Of a stretch of DNA of 36,185 bases, positions 5,160 to 19,079 are shown piece after piece (position 1 is the stretch's first letter; each line of letters begins with the position of its first letter). This DNA comes from Rubrivivax sp. (lineage in GTDB: Bacteria > Pseudomonadota > Gammaproteobacteria > Burkholderiales > Burkholderiaceae_C): positions 1-36,185 of the forward strand of contig JAJAZC010000204.1 in assembly GCA_026785885.1 (NCBI GenBank). The letters are read 5' to 3'. A program made the translations under genes and the position numbers. The notes below the pieces were generated by a model. It ran no database searches. It was given only the letters and a program-made list of their open reading frames with translations, and was not told the origin of the DNA.

Positions 5160-5346
5160 GGACTACCCGCGCTGCGATCCGCGGCGCGCGGCTTTGCAGG
5201 TGCCACGTAGCTGCATTGGCGGTAGCGCATTACGCACCTGCAGCTCCACCGGCAATGGCCTGCATTCCTACACGCTGACACGCAGCGTACGGATGGCGCA
5301 ATTACTGCTTGGACAATGCAATTCCGCGTTGATTCAAACACCTGCC

Positions 5347-6234
5347 ATGTCTGCCGACCAAAAACCTTCGCTTGCGCCTATGTCTACGCCTGCGACTGCG
5401 CCCGCGTTTTCTCCTGCGTCCCAGCCCACTGCTTCCCCGGCGCCGATCAGCAACTGGACCATCGACTGTCAGCTGGCCTACGAGCTGAACGATCCGACCC
5501 ATTTCATCTTTCAGATCCACGCCTGGCACGGTGCCGATCAGCAGGTGCTGGCCGAATCACTGGAGCTATCGCCCGGCGTCGCCAGCCACGTCTACCTCGA
5601 CCCGCTGTCGCACCACCGCACTCTGCGCCTGCAGGCGCCGCAAGGCGTGTTGAAGCTGCACTACCAGGCCACGGTGCATGTGGCGCCCCGCCTGCGCGAT
5701 ACGGGCGCTGCCGAGTTGCCGGTGCAGGACCTTCCCGATGCGCTGGTGCACCAGCTGATGCCGACGCGCTACTGCGAATCGGACCTGTTGGCGCGAGCTG
5801 CGTACAAGCTGTTCGGCAACTTGCCGCCCGGCTATGCACGGGTGCAGGCCATCAGCGACTGGATCCACGACAACGTCGACTACGTCATCGGCACCACCGA
5901 CACCACAACCACCTCGTGCGACGTCTTCCGGCAGCGTGCGGGCGTGTGCCGCGACTTCGCGCATCTGGGCGTCACGTTCTGTCGCGCGCTCAATATTCCG
6001 GCGCGTCTGGCGGTGGGGTATGTGCGCTTCAACCAACCGCCGCCGGACTTTCACGCTGTGTTCGAGGCTTACCTGGGCGGCCAGTGGGTGCTGTTCGACC
6101 CGACGCAGATGGCCCCGGTGGAGCACCTGGTGCGCATCGCCTGCGGCCGCGACGCCAAGGACGTTGCCTTTTCCACGATCTTCGGCCAGGCGACGATGCT
6201 GACGATGACACCCGACGTGCAGCCTGCGGCCTAA
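5347..6234 (+). CDS. Transglutaminase-like cysteine protease family protein
   Basis: A 295-residue protein with an N-terminal Pro/Ala/Ser-rich stretch (about residues 1-35), a beta-rich N-terminal domain of the type found before bacterial transglutaminase cores, and a transglutaminase-like domain from about 160 to 270. The catalytic triad is visible: C201 in GVCRDFAH, H236 in DFHAVFEAYL and D251 in LFDPTQ. Such proteins usually act as cysteine peptidases or amidases and are often found beside COG0388/alpha-E operons, but no such partner is seen here. The start is uncertain: ATG at 5347 lacks a clear ribosome site, and the second ATG eleven codons on is also possible. No signal peptide is obvious. 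Confidence 0.85.
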   Translation: MSADQKPSLAPMSTPATAPAFSPASQPTASPAPISNWTIDCQLAYELNDPTHFIFQIHAWHGADQQVLAESLELSPGVASHVYLDPLSHHRTLRLQAPQGVLKLHYQATVHVAPRLRDTGAAELPVQDLPDALVHQLMPTRYCESDLLARAAYKLFGNLPPGYARVQAISDWIHDNVDYVIGTTDTTTTSCDVFRQRAGVCRDFAHLGVTFCRALNIPARLAVGYVRFNQPPPDFHAVFEAYLGGQWVLFDPTQMAPVEHLVRIACGRDAKDVAFSTIFGQATMLTMTPDVQPAA

Positions 6235-6306: not shown

Positions 6307-7191
6307 ATGCTTCCGATCGATTCCAGCATGGACGCAGCCGAGCCAGCGCAGACCTTGCGCGTGCGCACGGTGTGGATTTCCGATCTGCACTTGGGCACGC
6401 CCGGCTGCCAGGCGCGGGCCTTGCTGGACTTCTTGCGTGATGTCGATTGCGAGACGCTGTACCTGGTGGGCGACATCATCGACGGCTGGCAATTGCGCCG
6501 GTCTTGGTACTGGCCGCAGCTGCACAACAACGTGGTGCAAAAGATTCTGCGCAAGGCGCGTAAGGGCACGCGGGTGATTTCCGTGCCCGGCAACCATGAC
6601 GAATTTGCGCGCCGCTACGTGGCCCACAAGTTCGGCGGTGTCGAGGTCATGGACGAATGCATTCACGTTTTGAAGGACGGCCGCAAGCTGTGGGTCACCC
6701 ACGACGACCTGTACGACGGCGTGATTCAGTGCGCGCGCTGGCTGGCCACCACCGGCGACGTGGCTTACGAGCTAACGCTCAAGTTCAACCGCTGGTTCAA
6801 CCGCGCGCGGGCAGGTGTCGGGCTGCCGTACTGGAGCCTGTCGCGCTACTTGAAGATGAAGGTCAAGCGCGCCGTCAGCTACGTCGGCGACTTTGAGCAA
6901 GCGGTGGCCCGTGAAGCGCGCAAGCGCGGGGTGCAGGGCGTCGTCTGCGGCCACATCCACCGCGCAGAAATCCGCGACATCGACGGCATCCTGTAGTGCA
7001 ACGACGGTGACTGGGTCGAAAGCCTGACGGCGTTGGTCGAACACACCGACGGGCGGCTGGAGATCATCGACCGCAGCATTGGGCAGCGGCATCCTGCGGT
7101 GCAAGCTGCGCCCCGCACTGCCGATCTGGACGATCTGCCGGACGACGTGCCAGTCCCGGTGGCCGCGCTGCGGGCCGGCCTGCTGCGTTGA
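6307..7191 (+). pseudogene. COG2908 metallophosphoesterase (LpxH-like), interrupted by an in-frame TAG
   Basis: The frame encodes a calcineurin-type phosphoesterase with all metal motifs: D26 and H28 in ISDLHLG, GDIIDGW, GNHD and GHIH. The close relative LpxH cleaves UDP-2,3-diacylglucosamine, but this roughly 290-residue subgroup is usually a second, non-LpxH phosphatase. At 6994-6996 a TAG stops the frame after DIDGIL. The same frame then continues CNDGDWVESLTALVEH and runs to TGA at 7189-7191. In relatives the interrupted position is a Tyr (TAC/TAT), so one base change explains the stop. The 229-residue upstream product keeps every metal ligand but loses the C-terminal strand and tail, so residual activity cannot be excluded. 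Confidence 0.85.
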
Positions 7192-7246
7192 CGCGGGCAG
7201 CGTACGGCCGGCCGCCAGCATCACCCGCGCTGCAACAGCGTCAGCC

Positions 7247-7973
7247 CTAAGCTGCCAGGGCGTTCACCCCGGCGTCAACGGCGGCCGCAGGCAACGGGCC
7301 GGTGCTGCCCCGCCCGATGCCCAGGTACTCGAACCCCAACGTAGCCACCGCCTGCGGCTCGTACAGGTTGCGGCCGTCGAACAGCACCGGCGTGCGCATC
7401 GACTTGCGCAGCCGCACGAAGTCTGGGCTGCGGAACTGGCGCCACTCCGTCACGACCAGCAGCGCATCGGCGCCCTCGGCGGCTGCTCGATGGCCGCGCC
7501 TCTTTCAGGAACTCCAGGTTGGAGACGACGGCAAACGGCAGCAGCGCAGTGCGCCGGCGCAAAGCATCGGCCGCCGCCAGACGCACGCGCTCGGCGGTAC
7601 CCACCGGCACCGTGCTTTTGTTGACGATGAATTTGCACTCGAGCATGTGCCCGCCGATGGTGGCCGCAGCGGCCAGCACGTGCGCCAGATCGGCCGAGCC
7701 GTCCTGCGCGGCGGGCGTGCCGACGGCAGTAAAGACGATGGTTCCGTAGACCACCGCCGACGCAGCGTCGGTTGTGAAGTGCAGCCGGTTGGCCTGCGCG
7801 TTGCGCAGCACCATCTCGGCCAGCCCGGGCTCGTGAATCGGCAGGTGACCGGACTGCAGGCCGGCGATGCGGGCGGCGTCGATATCGACACAGAAGACGC
7901 TGTTGCCCATCTCAACCATGCAGGCAGCGGTCACGAGCCCAACGTAGCCGGCGCCGAACACGCAGACCTTCAT
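7247..7973 (-). pseudogene. ugd: UDP-glucose 6-dehydrogenase remnant with internal deletion and frameshift
   Basis: The intact enzyme oxidises UDP-glucose to UDP-glucuronate with two NAD+. Here 158 codons of the NAD-binding domain are normal (MKVCVFGAGYVGLVTAACM to NLEFLKE). The reading then fails: a GGG run expected at KEGAAIE has lost one G near 7500. A few codons later the sequence jumps, in a different frame, to the C-terminal piece AAEGADALLVVTEWRQF, ending GFEYLGIGRG. About 200 residues are missing, including the central helices and the catalytic cysteine motif (GGSCFPKD in the family). The start codon overlaps the stop of the upstream glycosyltransferase as TGATG, showing former translational coupling. 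It cannot be functional. Confidence 0.9.
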
Positions 7974-9151
7974 CAAGGCTCGCCCATCAGTTGCTGCACG
8001 GTGGGCGTCCGTGCGGGCGCACCGGCGCGCTCCAGCAAATCGGCCAGGATGTCGGTCACCTCGTAAACGGCCTGGTTGTCGATGGCCTGCAAGCGCTTAT
8101 GCAGCGCCGGCAGCTTATGCAACACGGCCGCCACGGCGCCAGGCAAGGCACGCACCGAAGGCACCACCTGGCCGACACCCTGCTCGCGCACCCAGCGGGT
8201 GTTGAAACGCTCTTGCGGCATCGTCCACGCGTTGTGAAACGTGATCACCGGCAGGCCCATGTGCACGGCCTCACTCAGGCTGCCGGGCCCAGGCTTGCCG
8301 ATGAAGTAGTCGGCCAGCCGCATCACCCGCGCGACCTCAGGCGTGAAGCCGATCACCGCATGCGGCGCAGCGCGGTGCAAACGCCGCAGCCCGGCCGCCA
8401 ACGGCTGGTTGTGGCCGCACATCAGGATCAATTGCTGATCACCCAGCCGCTTGGCGATCGACAGCATCTGCGTCGAACCCTGGCCGCCGAACAACACCAG
8501 GCCGGTCGGTCGCTCGGGGTCCAGACCCAGCGTTGCAAGACCGGCCTTGCGGTCCAGGCCGCGCGAGGCTTGGCTCGCTGCATAGAACGACGGCCGCATC
8601 ACCATGCCACTGGTCAGCGACAGCTGGTCTTCGCGATAGCCCGCGGCCTGCGCCTGGGCCAGCGCTTCGGTGCTGCCGCAGACGATGTGCTGCTGCTGGC
8701 CGGGCTCGATCCAGAAGTGCGGCGGCAGGTCCGCCATGTCGGTGAGCACCGTGACGTAAGGCACACCGGGCAGCGTGCCGGCCAGTGACTCGTACAGCGC
8801 GCGGTTGAAGTTGGGAATAAGCGAGACAACGAGGTCCGGTTCGGTACGCAGCCAATGCTGTTGCAAGGCCTGCACCAGCCGACCGTGCGTGAGGCGGATG
8901 AGGCCCTGCAACAGCTTCAACTCCTGCGCCAGACCCAACGTCCAGCCGCGAGCCAGGCGCCGGTTGTAGAGATCTTCGGGGTCGATGCCGGTGAGGCGCC
9001 GGAAGCGACCCCGCGGGTCCAGCACCTCAGTCAGGTTGACCAGTTCAACCCGCCACGGCCGGCCCTGCTGTGCAATGGCTTCCTGCAAGGCCAGTGCTGC
9101 AGCGCGGTGGCCGCCGCCGGCATTGAAGTGAACGAGTGCGATGCTCTTCAT
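7973..9151 (-). CDS. MGDG-synthase-like glycosyltransferase (GT28 / galactosyldiacylglycerol synthase family)
   Basis: A 392-residue glycosyltransferase of the MurG/MGDG-synthase type. The N-terminal acceptor motif FNAGGGHRAAALAL (residues about 8-21) matches the MGDG-synthase domain. The C-terminal nucleotide-sugar half shows LVLFGGQGS and the donor motif IGKPGPGSLSEAVHMGLPVI. Relatives move a hexose or hexuronate from a UDP-sugar to diacylglycerol at the inner membrane. A partner ugd (now broken) overlaps its stop codon, so UDP-glucuronate is a reasonable donor guess. The ATG at 9151 has GGGGA a few bases upstream. It is the only member of this cluster with an undamaged frame. Acceptor and sugar are inferred, not shown. 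Confidence 0.85.
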   Translation of the reverse strand: MKSIALVHFNAGGGHRAAALALQEAIAQQGRPWRVELVNLTEVLDPRGRFRRLTGIDPEDLYNRRLARGWTLGLAQELKLLQGLIRLTHGRLVQALQQHWLRTEPDLVVSLIPNFNRALYESLAGTLPGVPYVTVLTDMADLPPHFWIEPGQQQHIVCGSTEALAQAQAAGYREDQLSLTSGMVMRPSFYAASQASRGLDRKAGLATLGLDPERPTGLVLFGGQGSTQMLSIAKRLGDQQLILMCGHNQPLAAGLRRLHRAAPHAVIGFTPEVARVMRLADYFIGKPGPGSLSEAVHMGLPVITFHNAWTMPQERFNTRWVREQGVGQVVPSVRALPGAVAAVLHKLPALHKRLQAIDNQAVYEVTDILADLLERAGAPARTPTVQQLMGEP

Positions 9152-9256
9152 GCTTGTCCCCGATGCTCCCGGCCTGACATGACACTGCGGTGAAGGCGTG
9201 GCGACAGTCCGGTGAAGGTGTCGATGGGTCGAGCGACCGAGTCTGGAGGTTAAGTC

Positions 9257-9342
9257 ATGCGAGTGGCGCATGCGAGTGGCGCATGCAAGCCGGTCATGCA
9301 ACAGGCTCAGGCAAGCCGGTCATGCAACAGGCTCAGGCAAGC
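9257..9342. repeat. Two adjacent tandem repeats (13-base x2, 26-base x2.2)
   Basis: A 13-base unit (ATGCGAGTGGCGC) is repeated exactly at 9257-9269 and 9270-9282. A 26-base unit is repeated exactly at 9285-9310 and 9311-9336, with six bases of a third copy. The second 26-base copy contains the last codons and stop (TGA at 9320-9322) of the phosphatidylserine decarboxylase frame, so the duplication grew out of the 3' end of that gene. Confidence 0.92.
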
Positions 9343-10182
9343 GCATTGGGGCCTGGCCCATGCGGATGCGCGCACCTGCTGCGATGCCCGGCGCGAGTGC
9401 AAAACCCGGCGGCACGAAAACGATGATCGTCGAGCCGTGCTGGAACCAGCCAAGCTCCTGCCCTTTTGGCGACCGCCACATCGCAAGGCATCTCGACCGG
9501 ACCACGGTACGTCAGGTGCAGCAGCACATCCAGCGCATGCAGCCGCCGGCTGGCCACCAAGATCGCCGCCACCGGCACCAGGGCCACCGGGTAGTCACCC
9601 CGCGCCAAGCGCAGCCGCAGCACCGCTCGCTCGTTGCGGCAGAACAACCGCTCCACGCGGGCCAGCGCAATCGGATTGACGTTCCAGGTGTCGCCACTGC
9701 GGTAGCTGACATGCTCCAGCCGCGCGTCGTGCGGTGCATGGAAGCGGGTGGTACATGGCCGACGTTAGCCGCAGCGTTACGTAGCTGCCGTGGTGGAACG
9801 GGGTGCTGTCCTGCGTCGGCCCGAACAGCTCCTGCAGTCGAAACAAAAAGCCTTTGGCCTGGAACACCACGGTGCCATCGACCGAGCCGCAGGCGCCAAC
9901 GATGGCATCGCAGGGACTGGCCAAAACCTGCGGGTCGGCTTCCACGGGCCGCGCGCCCGGGCGCAGCTCACGCATGAAGCAGTCGTGCAGGCTGGCAAAA
10001 CGCTGCTGTTGCGCATCGCTCAGATCCAGCTTGGTGAGCAGGCGCCACGCCGCGATCGAGCAGCGCGCCAGCCAGGGGTTGCGGATGCGGCTGAAGCGGC
10101 CCATCAGCCGAGTCAGCAACAGGCGCGGCACCCGGTTGGTGAGCAGGAAGTTGCTGTCTTCCTGCTGCAGAAAGCGCCGCAA
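9320..10182 (-). pseudogene. psd: Phosphatidylserine decarboxylase with two +1 frameshifts
   Basis: Psd makes phosphatidylethanolamine from phosphatidylserine with a self-generated pyruvoyl group. Joining three frames gives a normal-sized protein of about 286 residues. It runs QQEDSNFLLTNRVPRLLLTR at the N-terminus, ASPCDAIVGACG, then SGDTWNVNPIALARVERLFC, VALVPVAAILVAS and finally WFQHGSTIIVF, where HGS is the processing site. The first break is one extra base in a GGG run at 9746-9748 (after SAMYH). The second is one extra base in TTTT at 9474-9477 (after VAVAK). The first open start is TTG at 10182, with a stop codon upstream in frame, so the 5' end may also be eroded. Both indels lie in homopolymers, so sequencing error must be considered. 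Confidence 0.85.
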
Positions 10183-10248
10183 CGGGCGATGTTCATCACG
10201 CTGTCAATCTCACCGGTTGGACCTGCTGGCTTGCCAACGGATCGCACC

Positions 10249-11676
10249 ATGGACCCATCTTTTGCATCCCCTGCCCTGCCTGCCCTGACTGCTTTGGGTC
10301 TGGCTTTGTTGGCCTGGACGCTGCCGCGCGCCCGGCGCCGTTTGCAGCTGTCGCGGGCCAAGCACCGCTCGCTGGCCGGGCACGCGCGCATGGCCAAGCG
10401 CATCGCCGGGATGGTGCCGGGCTACGCTTATGACGAAGCCCGCTTTTTTGCATCTGATGGCGCGCCGCCGCAGGTGCAGGCCTTGCGCCGCGCCGGTCTG
10501 CAGCGCTTGAGCGATACCTACGCCCGCCGTTACCCCCAGAGCGCCGCGATGACCGCGCAGGCCCGCGACGCTTTGTCGGATTTGCAGTTCACCGGCAGCT
10601 ACCGCGTGCCCTTCCAGTGAGCACCGTTTCTGCGCCAGCACTTGCAGATCGGCAGCTTCTTGCAAGCCTCCTCCGGCGTCATGGTCGAGGACCTGGATGG
10701 CAACGTTTTCTACGACCTCACCGGGTCTTATGGCGTCAATGTGCTGGGCTACGACACCTACAAGGCCTGCCTCGCCGAAGGCGCGGCCGCCGCGCAGGCG
10801 CTGGGCCCGGTGCTCAGCGCATGCCACCCCGCGGTGCTGTCCAACGTGCAACGGCTGCGTGCAATGTCCGGCCTGGACGAAGTGTCCTTTCACATGTCCG
10901 GCGCCGAAGCCGTGATGCAGGCCGTGCGGTTGGCGCTCCATCACATGCGGCGCAGCTACCTCGTGCGCTTTTGCGGCGCCCACCACGGCTGGTGGGAGGA
11001 CGTGCAGCCCGCCCCCGGCAACCCGCTGCCGCCGCGCGAGACCTACACGCTCGAAGACCTGGACGAGCGCAGCTTGCAGGTGCTGCAGAGCCGCCGCGAC
11101 ATCGCCTGCGTGTTGGTCAAGCCGCTGCAGGCGCTGCACCCCAACGCGCCCGCGCCGGCGGACTCGTCGCTCGTCGACAGCACGCGCCGCGCCGGCTTCG
11201 ACCGCGGGCGCTGCTCGGCCTGGTTGCAACGGCTGCGCGAGGCCTGCACCAAGCGCAGCATCGTGCTGATCTTCGATGAGTTCTTCGTCGGCTTCCGGCT
11301 CCCGCCTGGCGGTGCCGACCTGTTTTCGATTCCGAGCTTCAGCCAGACCTTCGGCAATGTGACGGCCGAGGCGCTGGATAGCGGCCTGCCGGTGGTGGCC
11401 TTCGATCGCGCGGCAACCGCACAGCTGATCACGCACGGTGAACAAGGCCCGCGCAGGCCATGCGACGACGCGCTAGGTTTCGCCAACGCCGCCGTCGCAC
11501 TGGCCACCGATGCCGACAGGCACCGCCGATTCGAGCAAGCTGCACGGGCGCGCGCACTGGCGCTGGACTGGGACTCGGTCGTGTTGCGATCGGAAGCCGT
11601 GGTGGCGGCGATCGTTCACGGCGCCGCTCTATCGAGCCGGCAGGCCGCTGCCGTGATCGGCGCACGGGCGGCTTGA
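10249..11676 (+). pseudogene. Class III aminotransferase fused by deletion to a GT4 glycosyltransferase tail, with in-frame TGA
   Basis: Residues 1-123 carry a hydrophobic N-terminal helix (LTALGLALLAWTLPRARRR) and a region ending LQFTGSYRVPFQ. A TGA at 10618-10620 interrupts the frame, which continues FLRQHLQIGSFLQASSG with hallmarks of glutamate-1-semialdehyde-aminomutase-like class III aminotransferases (DLDGNVFYDLTGSYGVNV, SFHMSGAEAVMQAVRLA, VLIFDEFFVGFR). At about 11311-11322, after PPGG, the sequence changes in frame to a family 4 glycosyltransferase C-terminus: ADLFSIPSFSQTFGNVTAEA, LDSGLPVVAFD, QLITHGEQG. The PLP lysine segment of the aminotransferase and the acceptor half of the glycosyltransferase are gone. 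At least about 1.4 kb must have been deleted, estimated from usual family lengths. The chimera cannot perform either reaction. Confidence 0.85.
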
Positions 11677-11731: not shown

Positions 11732-12105
11732 TGGTGGAACCGGGGGGAATCGAACCCCCGTCCGCAAGCCTTCGCCGGACGGTTCTACATGCGTAGCTGT
11801 CTGATTTGGATTTAAGTGCTTCGGTCGCGCAGCAGCACGCTACCGAAGCCCCGATTCATTTGGTTTTAAGCCCACAACGAATGACACGCTGCAGGACGAG
11901 CCTATGTGAATGACCTCGCAGTCATTGACCTTTCGATCTCAGACCCAGCCCATAGACAAGCTGTTGCGAGGCTCACCGGTTTTAAGCGGCGAGGGCGTAC
12001 GTTTGATCGTTCGCAGTTACTTTGTTTCCAGTGGATTTACGAGCGAACTGGTGCTCGGCATGCCCCGCGCCGACTCCGAACCCACGTCGAAGCCAAGTCG
12101 GTCCC
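11732..12105 (-). ncRNA. ssrA: Transfer-messenger RNA (tmRNA), one-piece
   Basis: The RNA rescues stalled ribosomes by acting first as an alanyl-tRNA and then as an mRNA for a degradation tag. The 3' end reads as a T-arm plus GGTTCCACCA. The 5' end GGGACCG pairs with CGGTTCC of the acceptor (one G-U pair), which sets the 5' boundary at 12105. The tRNA-like 5' part holds GGCTTCGACGTGGG. The tag frame at 12014-11982 reads GCG AAC GAT CAA ACG TAC GCC CTC GCC GCT TAA, giving A-ANDQTYALAA with the conserved LAA end. Length is about 374 nt, as in other one-piece tmRNAs. The plus-strand ORFs across it are artefacts. Confidence 0.97.
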
Positions 12106-14577: not shown

Positions 14578-17298
14578 ATGAGCGCCTTCGCCAAGGAAAC
14601 ACTTCCCACCAGTCTCGAAGAGGAGATGCGCCGGTCGTACCTGGATTACGCGATGAGCGTAATCGTCGGCCGCGCACTGCCCGATGCGCGTGACGGCCTT
14701 AAGCCCGTGCATCGCCGGGTGTTGTTTGCGATGCACGAATTGGCCAACCACTGGAACCGGCCGTATAAAAAGAGCGCGCGCATTGTTGGCGATGTGATTG
14801 GTAAATATCACCCGCACGGCGACACGGCGGTGTACGACACGATCGTGCGCATGGCGCAGGAGTTCAGCCTGCGCCACATGCTGGTCGATGGCCAGGGCAA
14901 CTTCGGCAGCGTCGACGGCGACAACGCCGCGGCCATGCGCTATACCGAAATTCGCTTGTCGAAAATTGCGCACGAGATGCTCGAGGACATCGACAAGGAC
15001 ACCGTCGACTTTGCGCCCAACTACGACGGAAGCGAGCGTGAGCCTACGGTGCTGCCGACGCGGCTGCCAAACCTGCTGGTCAACGGCAGCGCCGGAATCG
15101 CGGTCGGCATGGCCACCAACATTCCGCCGCACAACCTCAACGAGGTCGTCGACGCCTGCCTGCATCTGTTGAAGAACCCAGATGCCGCGCTGGACGAGCT
15201 AATGGAGATCGTGCCGGCGCCGGACTTTCCCACCGCCGGCATCATCTATGGCCTCGGTGGCGTACGCGAGGGTTACCGCACCGGCCGCGGCAAGGTCGTG
15301 ATGCGGGCCAAGTGCCACTTCGAGGACATCGACAAGGGCCAGCGCCAGGCCATCATCGTCGACGAGATTCCGTATCAGGTGAACAAGAAGACCCTGCTTG
15401 AGCGCATGGCCGAGCTCGTCCACGAGAAGAAGCTCGAAGGCATCAGCCACATCCAGGACGAGAGCGACAAGGACGGAATGCGGGTCGTCATCGAGCTCAA
15501 GCGCGGTGAAGTGCCCGAGGTGGTGTTGAACAACCTGTACAAGCAGACGCAGCTGCAGGACACCTTCGGCATCAACATGGTGGCGCTGATCGACGGCCAG
15601 CCGCGCCTGTGTAATCTGAAGCAGCTGATCGACATCTTTCTCGAGCACCGCCGCGAGGTGGTGACCCGGCGCACGGTGTACGAGTTGCGCAAAGCGCGCG
15701 AGCGTGGCCACGTGCTGGAAGGTCTGGCGGTCGCGCTAGCCAACATCGACGAGTTCATCGAGACCATCAAGACCAGCCCCACCCCGCCGGTGGCCAAAGC
15801 CGCACTAATGGCCAAGAGTTGGGACAGCAGCATGGTTCGCGAGATGCTCGCGCGTGCCGAGGAAAGCACCGCCGGCGGTCGCGCTGCGTATCGGCCCGAG
15901 GGCCTGCCCACCAGCTACGGCGTGCAGCCAGACGGCCTGTACCGCCTCAGCGACGACCAGGCGCAGGAAATCCTGCAGATGCGCCTGCAGCGCCTGACGG
16001 GGCTTGAGCAGGACAAGATCATCGGCGAGTACCGCGATGTGATGGCGCAGATTGCCGACCTTCTGGATGTGCTGGCACGCCCTGAGCGCGTGACCTCCAT
16101 CATCAGCACCGAGCTGGCTGAGCTGCGCCATGAATTCGGCCAGACCAAAGCCGGCGCGCGCCGCAGCGTCATCGAGCGCAACGCGCTGGAGCTGGGCACC
16201 GAAGACCTGATCACGCCCACCGACATGGTGGTCACGCTCAGCCACACCGGCTACATCAAGAGCCAGCCGCTGATCGAGTACCGCGCGCAAAAGCGGGGCG
16301 GGCGTGGCAAGCAGGCCACGCAGACCAAGGAAGACGACTGGGTCGACCAGCTCTTCATCGCCAACACCCATGACTGGATCCTGTGCTTCAGCGACCGCGG
16401 CCGGGTTTACTGGATCAAGGTGTGGGAAGTGCCCCAGGGCTCACGCGCCTCACGCGGGCGGCCCATCGTCAACATGTTTCCGCTGCAGCCGGGCGAAAAA
16501 ATCACCGTCGTGTTGCCGTTGACCGGGCAGTTCCGCAGCTTTCCGGCCGATCACTACGTCTTCATGTGCACTGCTTTGGGCATTGTGAAGAAGACGCCGC
16601 TGGACGACTTCAGCAACCCGCGAAAGGCCGGCATCATCGCTGTCACGCTGGATGACGGTGACTACCTCATCGGCGCCGCGTTGACCGACGGCAAACACGA
16701 CGTGATGCTGTTCAGCGACGGCGGCAAGGCGGTGCGTTTCGACGAAGGCGACGTCACCGCGCATGGCCGCCAAGCGCGCGGTGTCAAGGGCATGTCGCTC
16801 GAAGATGGTCAGAGCGTGATCGCCATGCTGGTGGCCGAGGACGAAACACAAAGCGTTTTGACCGCCACGGAAAACGGATTCGGCAAACGCACCAGCATCG
16901 GCGAGTACACCCGCCATGGCCGCGGCACCAAGGGCATGATCGCGATTCAGCAATCTGGCCGCAATGGCCGTGTGGTGGCTGCCACGCTGGTGCGGCCGGC
17001 CGACGAGATCATGCTGATCACCGACAAGGGTGTGCTGGTGCGCACCCGCGTCAGTGAGATCCGAGAGCTGGGCCGGGCCACCCAGGGCGTGACCTTGATC
17101 GCACTGGACAATGGCACCAAGCTGTCGGGGCTGCAGCGCATCGTTGAGAACGATGCGCCTGCTTTAGGCATCGAAGGCACTGAAAGCGCCAACGGCGTCG
17201 ACGGCGCCTCAATCCCCGACACACCCGACACACCCGACACACCCGAAAGCCGCGACAGCGGCGGCATTGCCGGCGAGCCCGGCCCGGAAGGATTCTGA
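14578..17298 (+). CDS. gyrA: DNA gyrase subunit A
   Basis: This 906-residue subunit of gyrase cuts and rejoins DNA to introduce negative supercoils. The catalytic tyrosine is Y122 in [11 protein letters not shown]. The quinolone-determining region reads [10 protein letters not shown] with T83 and D87, numbered as in E. coli. Thr at 83 occurs naturally in many species, and the common resistance changes to Ile/Leu at 83 or Asn/Gly at 87 are absent. The GyrA box region is QKRGGRGKQ. The C-terminal DNA-wrapping beta-pinwheel follows from about residue 530. The extreme tail is acidic, with TPD repeated from a 9-base tandem repeat. ATG at 14578 fits the family start, and upstream in-frame codons are not conserved. 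The stop overlaps the next start. Confidence 0.97.
17218..17244. repeat. 9-base tandem repeat x3 in the gyrA tail
   Basis: GACACACCC is repeated exactly three times in frame, encoding DTP units in the non-conserved acidic C-terminal tail of GyrA. The following unit has diverged. Confidence 0.9.
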
Positions 17299-17933
17299 TG
17301 TTGAAGTTTTCAATGCCGATGGCGCTAAGTGCTGCGTGTAAAGCGACGGCCCTGACAGCCGTCCTGGTGACGGCCAGCGCGGCCTCCTGGGCGCAAGCGC
17401 CGGCCGCTGCACCTGCCGCGACGGCGCAAGGCAAGAAGGAATTGATCGCCCGTGTATTGCAGCTGCAGCAGCCGGGCATCGAGGTCATGGCCAAGGGTCT
17501 GGCGGAGCAGCCAGCACTGCAGCTGATGCAGCAGGCCAGCCAGGCGCTGCAACGCCTGCCGGCCGAGCGCCGCGAAGCCGTGGCCCGCGACATCGAAGCC
17601 GACCTTCGCAAGTACGCCGATGAGGCCGTGCCGATCGTGCGTGACCGGGCCTTGAAAGCCGCACCGCTGACGATTGCACCGATGCTCGAGGAGCGCATGA
17701 ACGAAGACGAGTTGCGCCAGGTCATCGCGATGCTGGAATCCCCGGTGATCCGTAAGTTCCAGGGCATGGCCGGCGACATGCAGCGGGTGCTGACGGAGAA
17801 GGTGGTCGCCGACAGCAAGTCCGACATCGAACCCAAGGTGCGTGCCGTGCAGCAGACCGTGGCCAAGCGCTTGGGCATTGAACCCACGCCGAACGGCGGC
17901 GCTTCGGGCCCGGCCGCCCCGGCCAAGAAGTAG
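17298..17933 (+). CDS. Secreted DUF2059-type protein
   Basis: A 211-residue protein with an N-terminal signal peptide, probably cut at about A32/Q33 (ASAASWA/QAP), for export to the periplasm. The mature part is helical. It contains DUF2059-like features: KKELIARVLQLQQPGIEVM, a long amphipathic middle, and the segment NEDELRQVIAMLESPVIRKFQ that marks this family. The C-terminus is a Gly/Ala/Pro-rich tail. The function of the family is unknown. Its ATG overlaps the gyrA stop (TGATG), so it is translationally coupled to gyrA, an arrangement common in related genomes. pheA follows 30 bases later. Confidence 0.85.
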   Translation: MLKFSMPMALSAACKATALTAVLVTASAASWAQAPAAAPAATAQGKKELIARVLQLQQPGIEVMAKGLAEQPALQLMQQASQALQRLPAERREAVARDIEADLRKYADEAVPIVRDRALKAAPLTIAPMLEERMNEDELRQVIAMLESPVIRKFQGMAGDMQRVLTEKVVADSKSDIEPKVRAVQQTVAKRLGIEPTPNGGASGPAAPAKK

Positions 17934-17963
17934 CTGCCAGCCGGCCCGTTCCAGACGCTGCGC

Positions 17964-19079
17964 ATGAGTTCACCCGACCGAGACGCCGCCCCTGCGCCAG
18001 CAAGCCTGCTGGCGCTGCGCGAGCGCATCGATTCGGTCGACATCGAACTGCTGGCGCTCTTGAACCGGCGAGCCCAGCTGGCGCTGGAAGTCGGTGAGCT
18101 GAAGAAGCAACAAGGCTCGGTAGTCTTCCGCCCCGAGCGCGAGGCGCAGGTCATCGACGGCCTCAAGGCGGGCAACCTTGGCCCGCTGCAGACCGCCAGC
18201 GTTGCGCCAATTTGGCGAGAAATCATGTCGGCCTGCCGCGCGCTGGAGACGCCCACGCGGGTGGCCTACCTCGGCCCGGCCGGCACCTTTAGCGAAGAAG
18301 CAGCGCTGGGTTTTTTCGGCTCGTCGATCGTGCGCGTGCCCTGCGCCAACTTCGATGAGGTTTTCCACGTAACGGCCACCGGCGCGGCGGATTTCGGCGT
18401 CGTGCCCGTAGAAAACTCCACCGAGGGCGTGGTCACTCGTTCGCTCGATCTGTTCTTGCACACGCCGTTGTTCATCATTGGCGAGACCAGCCTTTTCGTG
18501 CGCCACAACCTGCTGCGCCGCGCCGAGTCGCTTGACGACATCAGCGCGGTGTTGGCGCACCCGCAGGCGCTGGCGCAGTGCAACGCCTGGCTGTCCGCAC
18601 ACCTGCCACAGGCCGAGCGCCGGCCGGTTGCCAGCAATGCAGAAGGCGCGCGCCTGGCTGCTTTGGACGGCAGCGTGGCGGCCATCGCGGGCCAGCGCGC
18701 GTCCAGCGAGTTCGGGCTGCACGTGCTGGCGCCAGCAATTCAAGACGACGCGCACAACCGCACCCGCTTTGCTGTGTTGACGCACCCGCAGCGCCACCCG
18801 GCGCCACGGGCCTCGGGCCACGACTGCACGAGCCTGGTGGTCTCGGTCAGCAACCGGCCCGGCGCCGTGCACGACATGCTGGTACCGCTGAAGGCGCACG
18901 GCGTATCGATGAGCCGCTTCGAGTCGCGGCCGGCGCGCTCCGGCCTATGGGAGTACTACTTCTACATCGACCTCGAGGGCCACCCCGACGAGCCGCATGT
19001 CGCGCAGGCGCTGCAGGCGCTGCGTGAGGTCTGCGCGTTTTTCAAGGTCCTGGGCACGTACCCGGTCGACGCCAAATGA
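17964..19079 (+). CDS. pheA: Bifunctional chorismate mutase / prephenate dehydratase (P-protein)
   Basis: This 371-residue enzyme converts chorismate to prephenate and then to phenylpyruvate for phenylalanine synthesis. An AroQ-type chorismate mutase covers about residues 13-95 (LRERIDSVDIELLALLNRRAQ). The prephenate dehydratase covers about 97-277 (VAYLGPAGTFSEEAAL, GVVPVENSTEGVV, and the TRF motif in HNRTRFAVL). An ACT regulatory domain follows at about 290-365, with SRFESRPARSGLWEYYFYID containing the ESRP phenylalanine-binding motif, so feedback inhibition is expected. ATG at 17964 is 30 bases after the DUF2059 gene. In related genomes serC usually precedes and hisC follows; neither is here. 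Confidence 0.96.
   Translation: MSSPDRDAAPAPASLLALRERIDSVDIELLALLNRRAQLALEVGELKKQQGSVVFRPEREAQVIDGLKAGNLGPLQTASVAPIWREIMSACRALETPTRVAYLGPAGTFSEEAALGFFGSSIVRVPCANFDEVFHVTATGAADFGVVPVENSTEGVVTRSLDLFLHTPLFIIGETSLFVRHNLLRRAESLDDISAVLAHPQALAQCNAWLSAHLPQAERRPVASNAEGARLAALDGSVAAIAGQRASSEFGLHVLAPAIQDDAHNRTRFAVLTHPQRHPAPRASGHDCTSLVVSVSNRPGAVHDMLVPLKAHGVSMSRFESRPARSGLWEYYFYIDLEGHPDEPHVAQALQALREVCAFFKVLGTYPVDAK

Follow-up and report, generated by a model that had tools for sequence, protein, structure and literature searches.

Remnants of a putative Pho-regulated membrane-lipid gene cluster in a Rubrivivax genome

Six genes at the locus and their damage

We analysed a stretch of 36,185 nucleotides from Rubrivivax sp. 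(assembly GCA_026785885.1, contig C204, JAJAZC010000204.1; referred to as the window), in which six lipid-related genes are grouped at positions 6307-11676. The genome comprises 3.33 Mb in 227 contigs and is 89.9% complete. From left to right the cluster holds a PlcP-like phosphoesterase gene (+), ugd (-), a glycosyltransferase gene (GT28, -), psd, for phosphatidylserine decarboxylase (PSD, -), the gene of a class III aminotransferase (AT, +) and the tail of a second glycosyltransferase gene (GT4, +); L and G numbers below denote the loci and genomes compared. A preliminary description had grouped the six genes here, named a gene resembling monogalactosyldiacylglycerol (MGDG) synthase as the only intact one and read the damage as being of several kinds. 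All three statements held: each gene was found at its place, GT28 is one open frame, and the other five show in-frame stops, frame changes and large deletions, together with relaxed constraint. The features are as follows:

6307..7191, + strand: plcP-like calcineurin phosphoesterase, pseudogene (PF00149, 46.8 bits; TAG at 6994-6996; HGD changed to HDD)
7247..7973, - strand: ugd (UDP-glucose 6-dehydrogenase), pseudogene (PF03721, 156.6 bits)
7973..9151, - strand: GT28 lipid glycosyltransferase (MGDG-synthase type), intact, one 392-codon open frame
9329..10209, - strand: extra psd, pseudogene with frame changes (PF02666 in pieces)
10252..11313, + strand: AT with N-terminal hydrophobic stretch, pseudogene (PF00202, 59.2 bits; TGA at 10618-10620)
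11311..11316, no strand: deletion scar, about 2.2 kb gone (AT C-terminus, whole Mpo1-like gene, GT4 N-terminus)
11314..11676, + strand: GT4, C-terminal fragment fused to AT (PF13692, 41.6 bits)

The last three features record the largest loss. AT is cut at about residue 346, so that its C-terminal 200 or so codons are gone, including the conserved lysine of a YGK motif (K362 in the homologue of Malikia spinosa, L054, invariant in 13 of 13 sequences and presumably the lysine that binds pyridoxal phosphate); the family profile still scores 604.7 bits on the window over positions 6-373, with one TGA, and the L054 protein matches PF00202 at 125.2 bits. What remains of GT4 is its last 108 or so aligned residues (298-405 of the L054 query), and the L054 GT4 fits glycolipid synthase families best (at 130.8 and 112.6 bits, under the equivalog cut-off in each case). 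The gene order in relatives, AT, Mpo1-like, GT4, places a seventh gene inside the deletion, the size of which (about 2.2 kb) is arithmetic on the coordinates of the relative L051. No match to this Mpo1-like gene was found across the window's own assembly. In relatives it encodes a small membrane protein of about 200 residues that resembles Mpo1 in its conserved histidines and in a weak match to PF06127 (21.8 and 16.9 bits), a family with the Pfam title 2-hydroxy-palmitic acid dioxygenase; unlike Mpo1, it scores below the Pfam cut-off of 24, and no relative was found by sequence in the PDB. Its AlphaFold model (seven sequences) is all helix at low to middling confidence (mean pLDDT 64.8) and gave no match in Foldseek (best E 3.9); the AT model (four sequences, mean pLDDT 44.9) was not used.

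The frame of the PlcP-like gene (6307-6996) ends at the TAG while conserved sequence continues in frame to 7191, and the conserved HGD of the phosphoesterase reads HDD. Reading through the one stop, it is a 68% match to the L054 protein across query residues 7-253. The preliminary description had called this gene an LpxH-like phosphatase; we abandoned that identity, since the window piece scores far under both curated LpxH cut-offs (39.6 against 134 and 35.5 against 190.35 bits), as do five of five full-length relatives (35.2-49.3 and 30.0-41.7 bits). Close PlcP-like relatives adjoin a GT4 in L104, L106 and L107. In a separate genome (G050, L094/L095, G050:C7:19935-20696) two stops interrupt a PlcP-like gene that also lies beside a GT4, and a second PlcP-like gene in the same genome has none; loss of PlcP-like genes may recur.

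Ugd combines a frame change with an internal deletion of about 222 codons, its pieces corresponding to residues 1-158 and then 381-440 of the L048 Ugd. PSD lies in pieces in several frames, with three frame changes by manual reading and matches of 60, 52 and 65% to the L054 PSD, in which the full domain is present (PF02666, 181.9 bits, positions 1-197 of 198). Elsewhere in the genome an intact psd (C69) and two further intact PF03721 genes (C78, C219) were found, so basic lipid synthesis could continue despite the losses. In GT28 the C-domain passes its cut-off (PF04101, 28.2 against 22 bits) and the N-domain does not (PF06925, the MGDG synthase domain, 21.5 against 25). Its profile, built from relatives and the window, resembles both plant MGD1 (4wyi, E 1.6e-40) and a bacterial processive glucosyltransferase (9wde, E 2e-28); unlike MGD1, with the PF06925 score under cut-off, this subfamily occurs in Burkholderiales-type genomes, in metagenome-assembled genomes (MAGs) with Gammaproteobacteria in the title and in Acidobacteria. 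Two short tandem duplications (13-bp and about 30-bp units) at 9240-9340, just upstream of the GT28 start, may mark a rearranged promoter.

We evaluated constraint by counting aligned columns in which a single sequence departs from an otherwise invariant residue (L056, 93-98% to L054, was excluded here and from the promoter and neighbourhood counts below). The broken genes carry such window-unique columns at 40 of 1158 positions and GT28 at 0 of 348. Expressed per 100 columns, the window against the mean of the others gives 3.7 against 0.43 for AT (12 unique violations in 328 columns; rank 1 of 18), 4.8 against 0.51 for GT4 (1 of 16), 6.0 against 1.83 for Ugd (1 of 6) and 0.0 against 0.59 for GT28 (18 of 18); on this comparison GT28 is still constrained. 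Codon-position ratios gave no clear signal of their own. The amino-acid difference of the remnants is moderately raised, and that of PSD not at all, which suggests that the loss is probably recent.

Outside the cluster we considered 30 single open frames. Pfam families match 20 that are complete and one that is truncated at the window edge, none with an internal stop; the remaining nine are without a Pfam match and most are probably not genes. The window showed no further broken gene, a result that rests on chosen open frames, so that damage in unassigned stretches (4.6-5.3 kb, for example) could escape notice. Across the genome, ABC_tran gave 74 matches, with one internal stop and one match split in two rows (manual reading), and Epimerase gave 23 with none. 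The decay looks real and local to the cluster.

Intact sets in relatives

Relatives were compared over 20 regions, 42 named loci and then 15 and 17 further regions, with genes located by tblastn. The preliminary description had allowed that the genes might prove scattered in relatives; instead, many relatives hold an intact set in the same order, usually GT4, Mpo1-like, AT, PSD, GT28, (Ugd), PlcP-like, with LplT beside GT4 in several loci (in Malikia spinosa, L054, the PlcP-like gene lies beyond LplT instead). The window's order, Ugd included, is that of L035, and also that of L048 except for extra genes before the PlcP-like one.

Co-occurrence is near-strict. Among 36 genomes of the same genus, AT is present in 25 and the Mpo1-like gene in 27, with both in 25 and neither in 9; in the two genomes with the Mpo1-like gene only (G010 and G022) it sits at or near a contig start. 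In each of the 25 genomes with both genes, AT or the Mpo1-like gene shares its contig with a PSD, and a second PSD lies elsewhere in 22 (in G015, G026 and G028 the cluster PSD is the only one found), on which ground we rejected a housekeeping reading of the cluster PSD; the nine genomes with neither gene have exactly one PSD each. The PlcP-like gene occurs in 23 of the 25 genomes with AT and the Mpo1-like gene versus one of the nine with neither. GT28 (E <= 1e-60) was found in 23 of the 36, is absent from four AT genomes (G004, G011, G019, G034) and occurs with the PlcP-like gene in G024, in which AT and the Mpo1-like gene were not found anywhere in the genome. A phylum sample of 397 genomes, our own excluded, gave AT in 24, the Mpo1-like gene in 24 and both in 23 (exceptions G187 and G321), with up to three candidates per genome scored in one scan and up to eight in another.

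The association extends beyond the order, where PSD, AT and the Mpo1-like gene are present in 15 of 15 loci (one labelled as the same class, one a plasmid of Sphingomonas parapaucimobilis). In some loci of other classes a methyltransferase gene is also present, with PmtA as its best family (156 bits against a cut-off of 390, in the one protein tested); other outside loci have a GT4 of about 890-958 residues between AT and PSD. This long GT4 takes the place that separate genes for a phosphatase and a GT4 occupy in other genomes; in L140, L142 and L146 it carries an N-terminal DLHCHD or DMHCHD motif, in a part that we take to be PHP-like, and the one protein tested had no Pfam match there. GT28 occurs alone, with none of the other cluster genes, in stretches of Hydrogenophaga, Thiomonas, MAGs and Acidobacteria (L055, L059-L061, L063-L073, L082-L085, L088 and others; these are fetched stretches, not whole genomes), which suggests that it may work on its own.

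By this distribution, the predicted core of the set is PSD, AT and the Mpo1-like gene, with Ugd and GT28 as accessories. The dedicated lipid pathway proposed in the preliminary description is supported, with changes: syntenic intact sets and the tight co-occurrence of the core favor it, and Ugd and GT28, which it had counted in, belong to the accessory genes. Its gene list also lacked the Mpo1-like gene, which was invisible to it because the gene is deleted here.

PHO boxes near the cluster genes

The link to phosphate limitation raised in the preliminary description is supported by PHO boxes upstream of cluster genes in relatives. Counting as a match at least 11 of 14 positions of CTGTCATNNNNCTGTCAT, we found 83 in 577 kb of cluster loci against 5 in 336 kb of control sequence (the surroundings of other PSD genes in 20 genomes). 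Within 250 bp upstream, sites occur in same-order loci for GT4 (19/29), the Mpo1-like gene (20/31), AT (13/30), PSD (10/30) and Ugd (1/6), and in other loci for AT (6/15) and the Mpo1-like gene (4/15); divergent pairs share sites, so these per-gene counts are not independent. When GT4, the Mpo1-like gene, AT, PSD and the PlcP-like gene are pooled, at least one site is present at 26 of 33 loci of the same order and at 9 of 15 other loci; L102 nearly duplicates L043, and leaving it out gives 25 of 32 for the first group. At equal upstream length, 2 of 279 control open reading frames have one, these being picked without gene calling, so that some are not genes. Genes of the Pho neighborhood (pst-phoU, ppk-ppx, phoX, glpQ, ppk2 or phnCD) adjoin 5 of 35 cluster loci, 0 of 15 other loci, 0 of 20 control loci and 5 of 35 GT28-only loci, several of which are near copies of each other, so that the number in the last group is inflated.

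A probable function and its alternatives

Taken together, these comparisons suggest that the region is probably the recently broken remnant of a Pho-regulated cluster for membrane-lipid replacement. Many bacteria cope with low phosphate by replacing membrane phospholipids, and the closest known system is the established PlcP-Agt remodelling of Pseudomonas aeruginosa, Pelagibacter and Methylosinus, in which PlcP yields diacylglycerol and Agt enzymes form MGDG and glucuronic acid diacylglycerol (GADG), with PHO boxes lying upstream of the genes (PMC8528852, PMC4796936, PMC9239053); a further diacylglycerol glycosyltransferase is described near plcP in some methanotrophs (PMC9239053). Our cluster shares with it a PlcP-like phosphoesterase, lipid-type glycosyltransferases and PHO boxes; by contrast, where section 13 of PMC4796936 sets out six types of plcP neighborhood from marine bacteria, its text mentions no decarboxylase, aminotransferase or Mpo1-like protein. 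By its apparent working the cluster would be a variant of PlcP-Agt-type remodelling with an undescribed PSD-AT-Mpo1 core, and we do not claim membership. No description of this set appeared among the literature matches listed (titles and abstract starts, few subscription journals); the preliminary description had likewise not recognised it as a known system.

In the intact set, phosphate starvation would lead PhoB to turn on divergent promoters; the PlcP-like enzyme would strip phosphorylated head groups to leave diacylglycerol; and GT4, with GT28 where present, would add sugars to it, Ugd supplying UDP-glucuronate in some genomes. The extra PSD, AT and the Mpo1-like protein would act jointly on one further lipid, and most likely they would make or turn over a lipid that bears an amine. 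In the lineage of the window, the PlcP-like enzyme and this putative amine branch are gone, and GT28 would keep an independent use. We infer the PlcP activity, the sugar donors, the substrates of AT, PSD and the Mpo1-like protein, and PhoB control in vivo; likewise, a product with an amino or sugar head group, as first proposed, is a prediction. The near-inseparable trio with PHO-box-like sites in Malikia, on the Sphingomonas plasmid and in other classes points to a membrane lipid or turnover step of which our searches found no description, and the window offers a natural case of loss that separates the core from a GT28 able to live without it.

Several observations weigh against this interpretation. 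The PlcP-like and PSD remnants rank only third in unique violations (2.2 against 0.75 per 100 columns, 3 of 16, and 1.8 against 0.57, 3 of 19), and the mean amino-acid difference of PSD is not above that of relatives (0.320 versus 0.323). Upstream sites are few in same-order loci for the PlcP-like gene (4/22), GT28 (2/21) and LplT (0/6), and in other loci PSD has none (0/15). No site was seen in 7 of the 33 loci of the same order or in 6 of the 15 others. Each locus is scored over as many as five genes, and a set of five control genes picked at random contains a site in 3.8% of draws; the window itself has no 11/14 site (best 10/14). The Pho-gene neighborhood alone is not significant (5/35 against 0/20, p 0.09), and the p values take no account of relatedness. 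Finally, the nearest PDB match of AT means that its chemistry could concern an acyl chain.

This last point leads to the alternative that survives best, although we consider it fairly unlikely: that AT, PSD and the Mpo1-like protein make a long-chain amine or a beta-amino fatty acyl lipid of sphingoid-like kind and do not exchange head groups. The mycosubtilin synthase aminotransferase domain acts on acyl thioesters. It is the closest PDB match of AT (173 bits), followed by glutamate-1-semialdehyde aminomutases (129 bits), so that AT may act on either an acyl chain or a head group; aminopentol aminotransferase (6hbs) also matches, at 70 bits. AT has the domain of these enzymes and the YGK lysine; unlike them, it stands alone, with a conserved N-terminal part of about 110 residues that starts with a hydrophobic stretch, beside PSD and the Mpo1-like gene. 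The hydroxy-fatty-acid title of PF06127 points the same way, as does the Sphingomonas plasmid, on which the triad lies about 10 kb from a class I/II aminotransferase, which we take to be a serine palmitoyltransferase, adjoining an acyl carrier protein. Against it, that protein has a 46% match in one of 61 genomes (G051, which is without AT) and at most 37% in the cluster genomes, on which ground a sphingolipid pathway was rejected; and PSD is a head-group enzyme, accompanied in some other-class loci by the PmtA-best methyltransferase.

A second alternative, which we regard as improbable, has the three proteins perform consecutive steps to a phosphorus-free amine lipid. The Mpo1-like protein would act as an oxygenase on a 2-hydroxy-acid head group of a glycerolipid, AT would aminate the keto acid so formed, giving a serine-like head group, and PSD would decarboxylate this to an ethanolamine-like one, which a PmtA-like enzyme would methylate in some genomes. 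If true, several proteobacterial classes would have a phosphate-free stand-in for phosphatidylethanolamine or phosphatidylcholine at low phosphate.

We are somewhat more doubtful still that the cluster is intact in the organism and that the breaks are errors of a fragmented, metagenome-type assembly. The number of contigs and the incompleteness of the genome agree with this, errors commonly take the form of small frame changes and of clean deletions, and there is no near-identical assembly among 60 relatives or the 42 named loci, from which records very near the window may be excluded. Sequencing errors do not sit well with the substitutions in the broken genes where relatives all agree, which GT28 lacks, with the 20 complete genes elsewhere in the window that are unbroken, with the few ABC_tran lesions genome-wide, or with the absence of the Mpo1-like gene from the whole assembly. 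That the locus only groups housekeeping lipid genes (LpxH, PSD, Ugd) that share no pathway is highly implausible: Ugd and GT28 occur in some clusters only and LplT lies beside GT4 in some, but the genome has a further PSD and further Ugd-type genes outside the cluster, the LpxH scores fall short of the cut-offs, and AT, the Mpo1-like gene and PSD are nearly inseparable.

As to the neighboring sequence, between the open reading frame after gyrA and pheA (window 17298-17964), where serC lies in related genera, no serC was seen, and a 211-residue open reading frame there has no Pfam match. Window 5346-6231 is a transglutaminase gene, and directly after the GT4 fragment lies a tmRNA gene (window 11732-12105) with the tag ANDQTYALAA.

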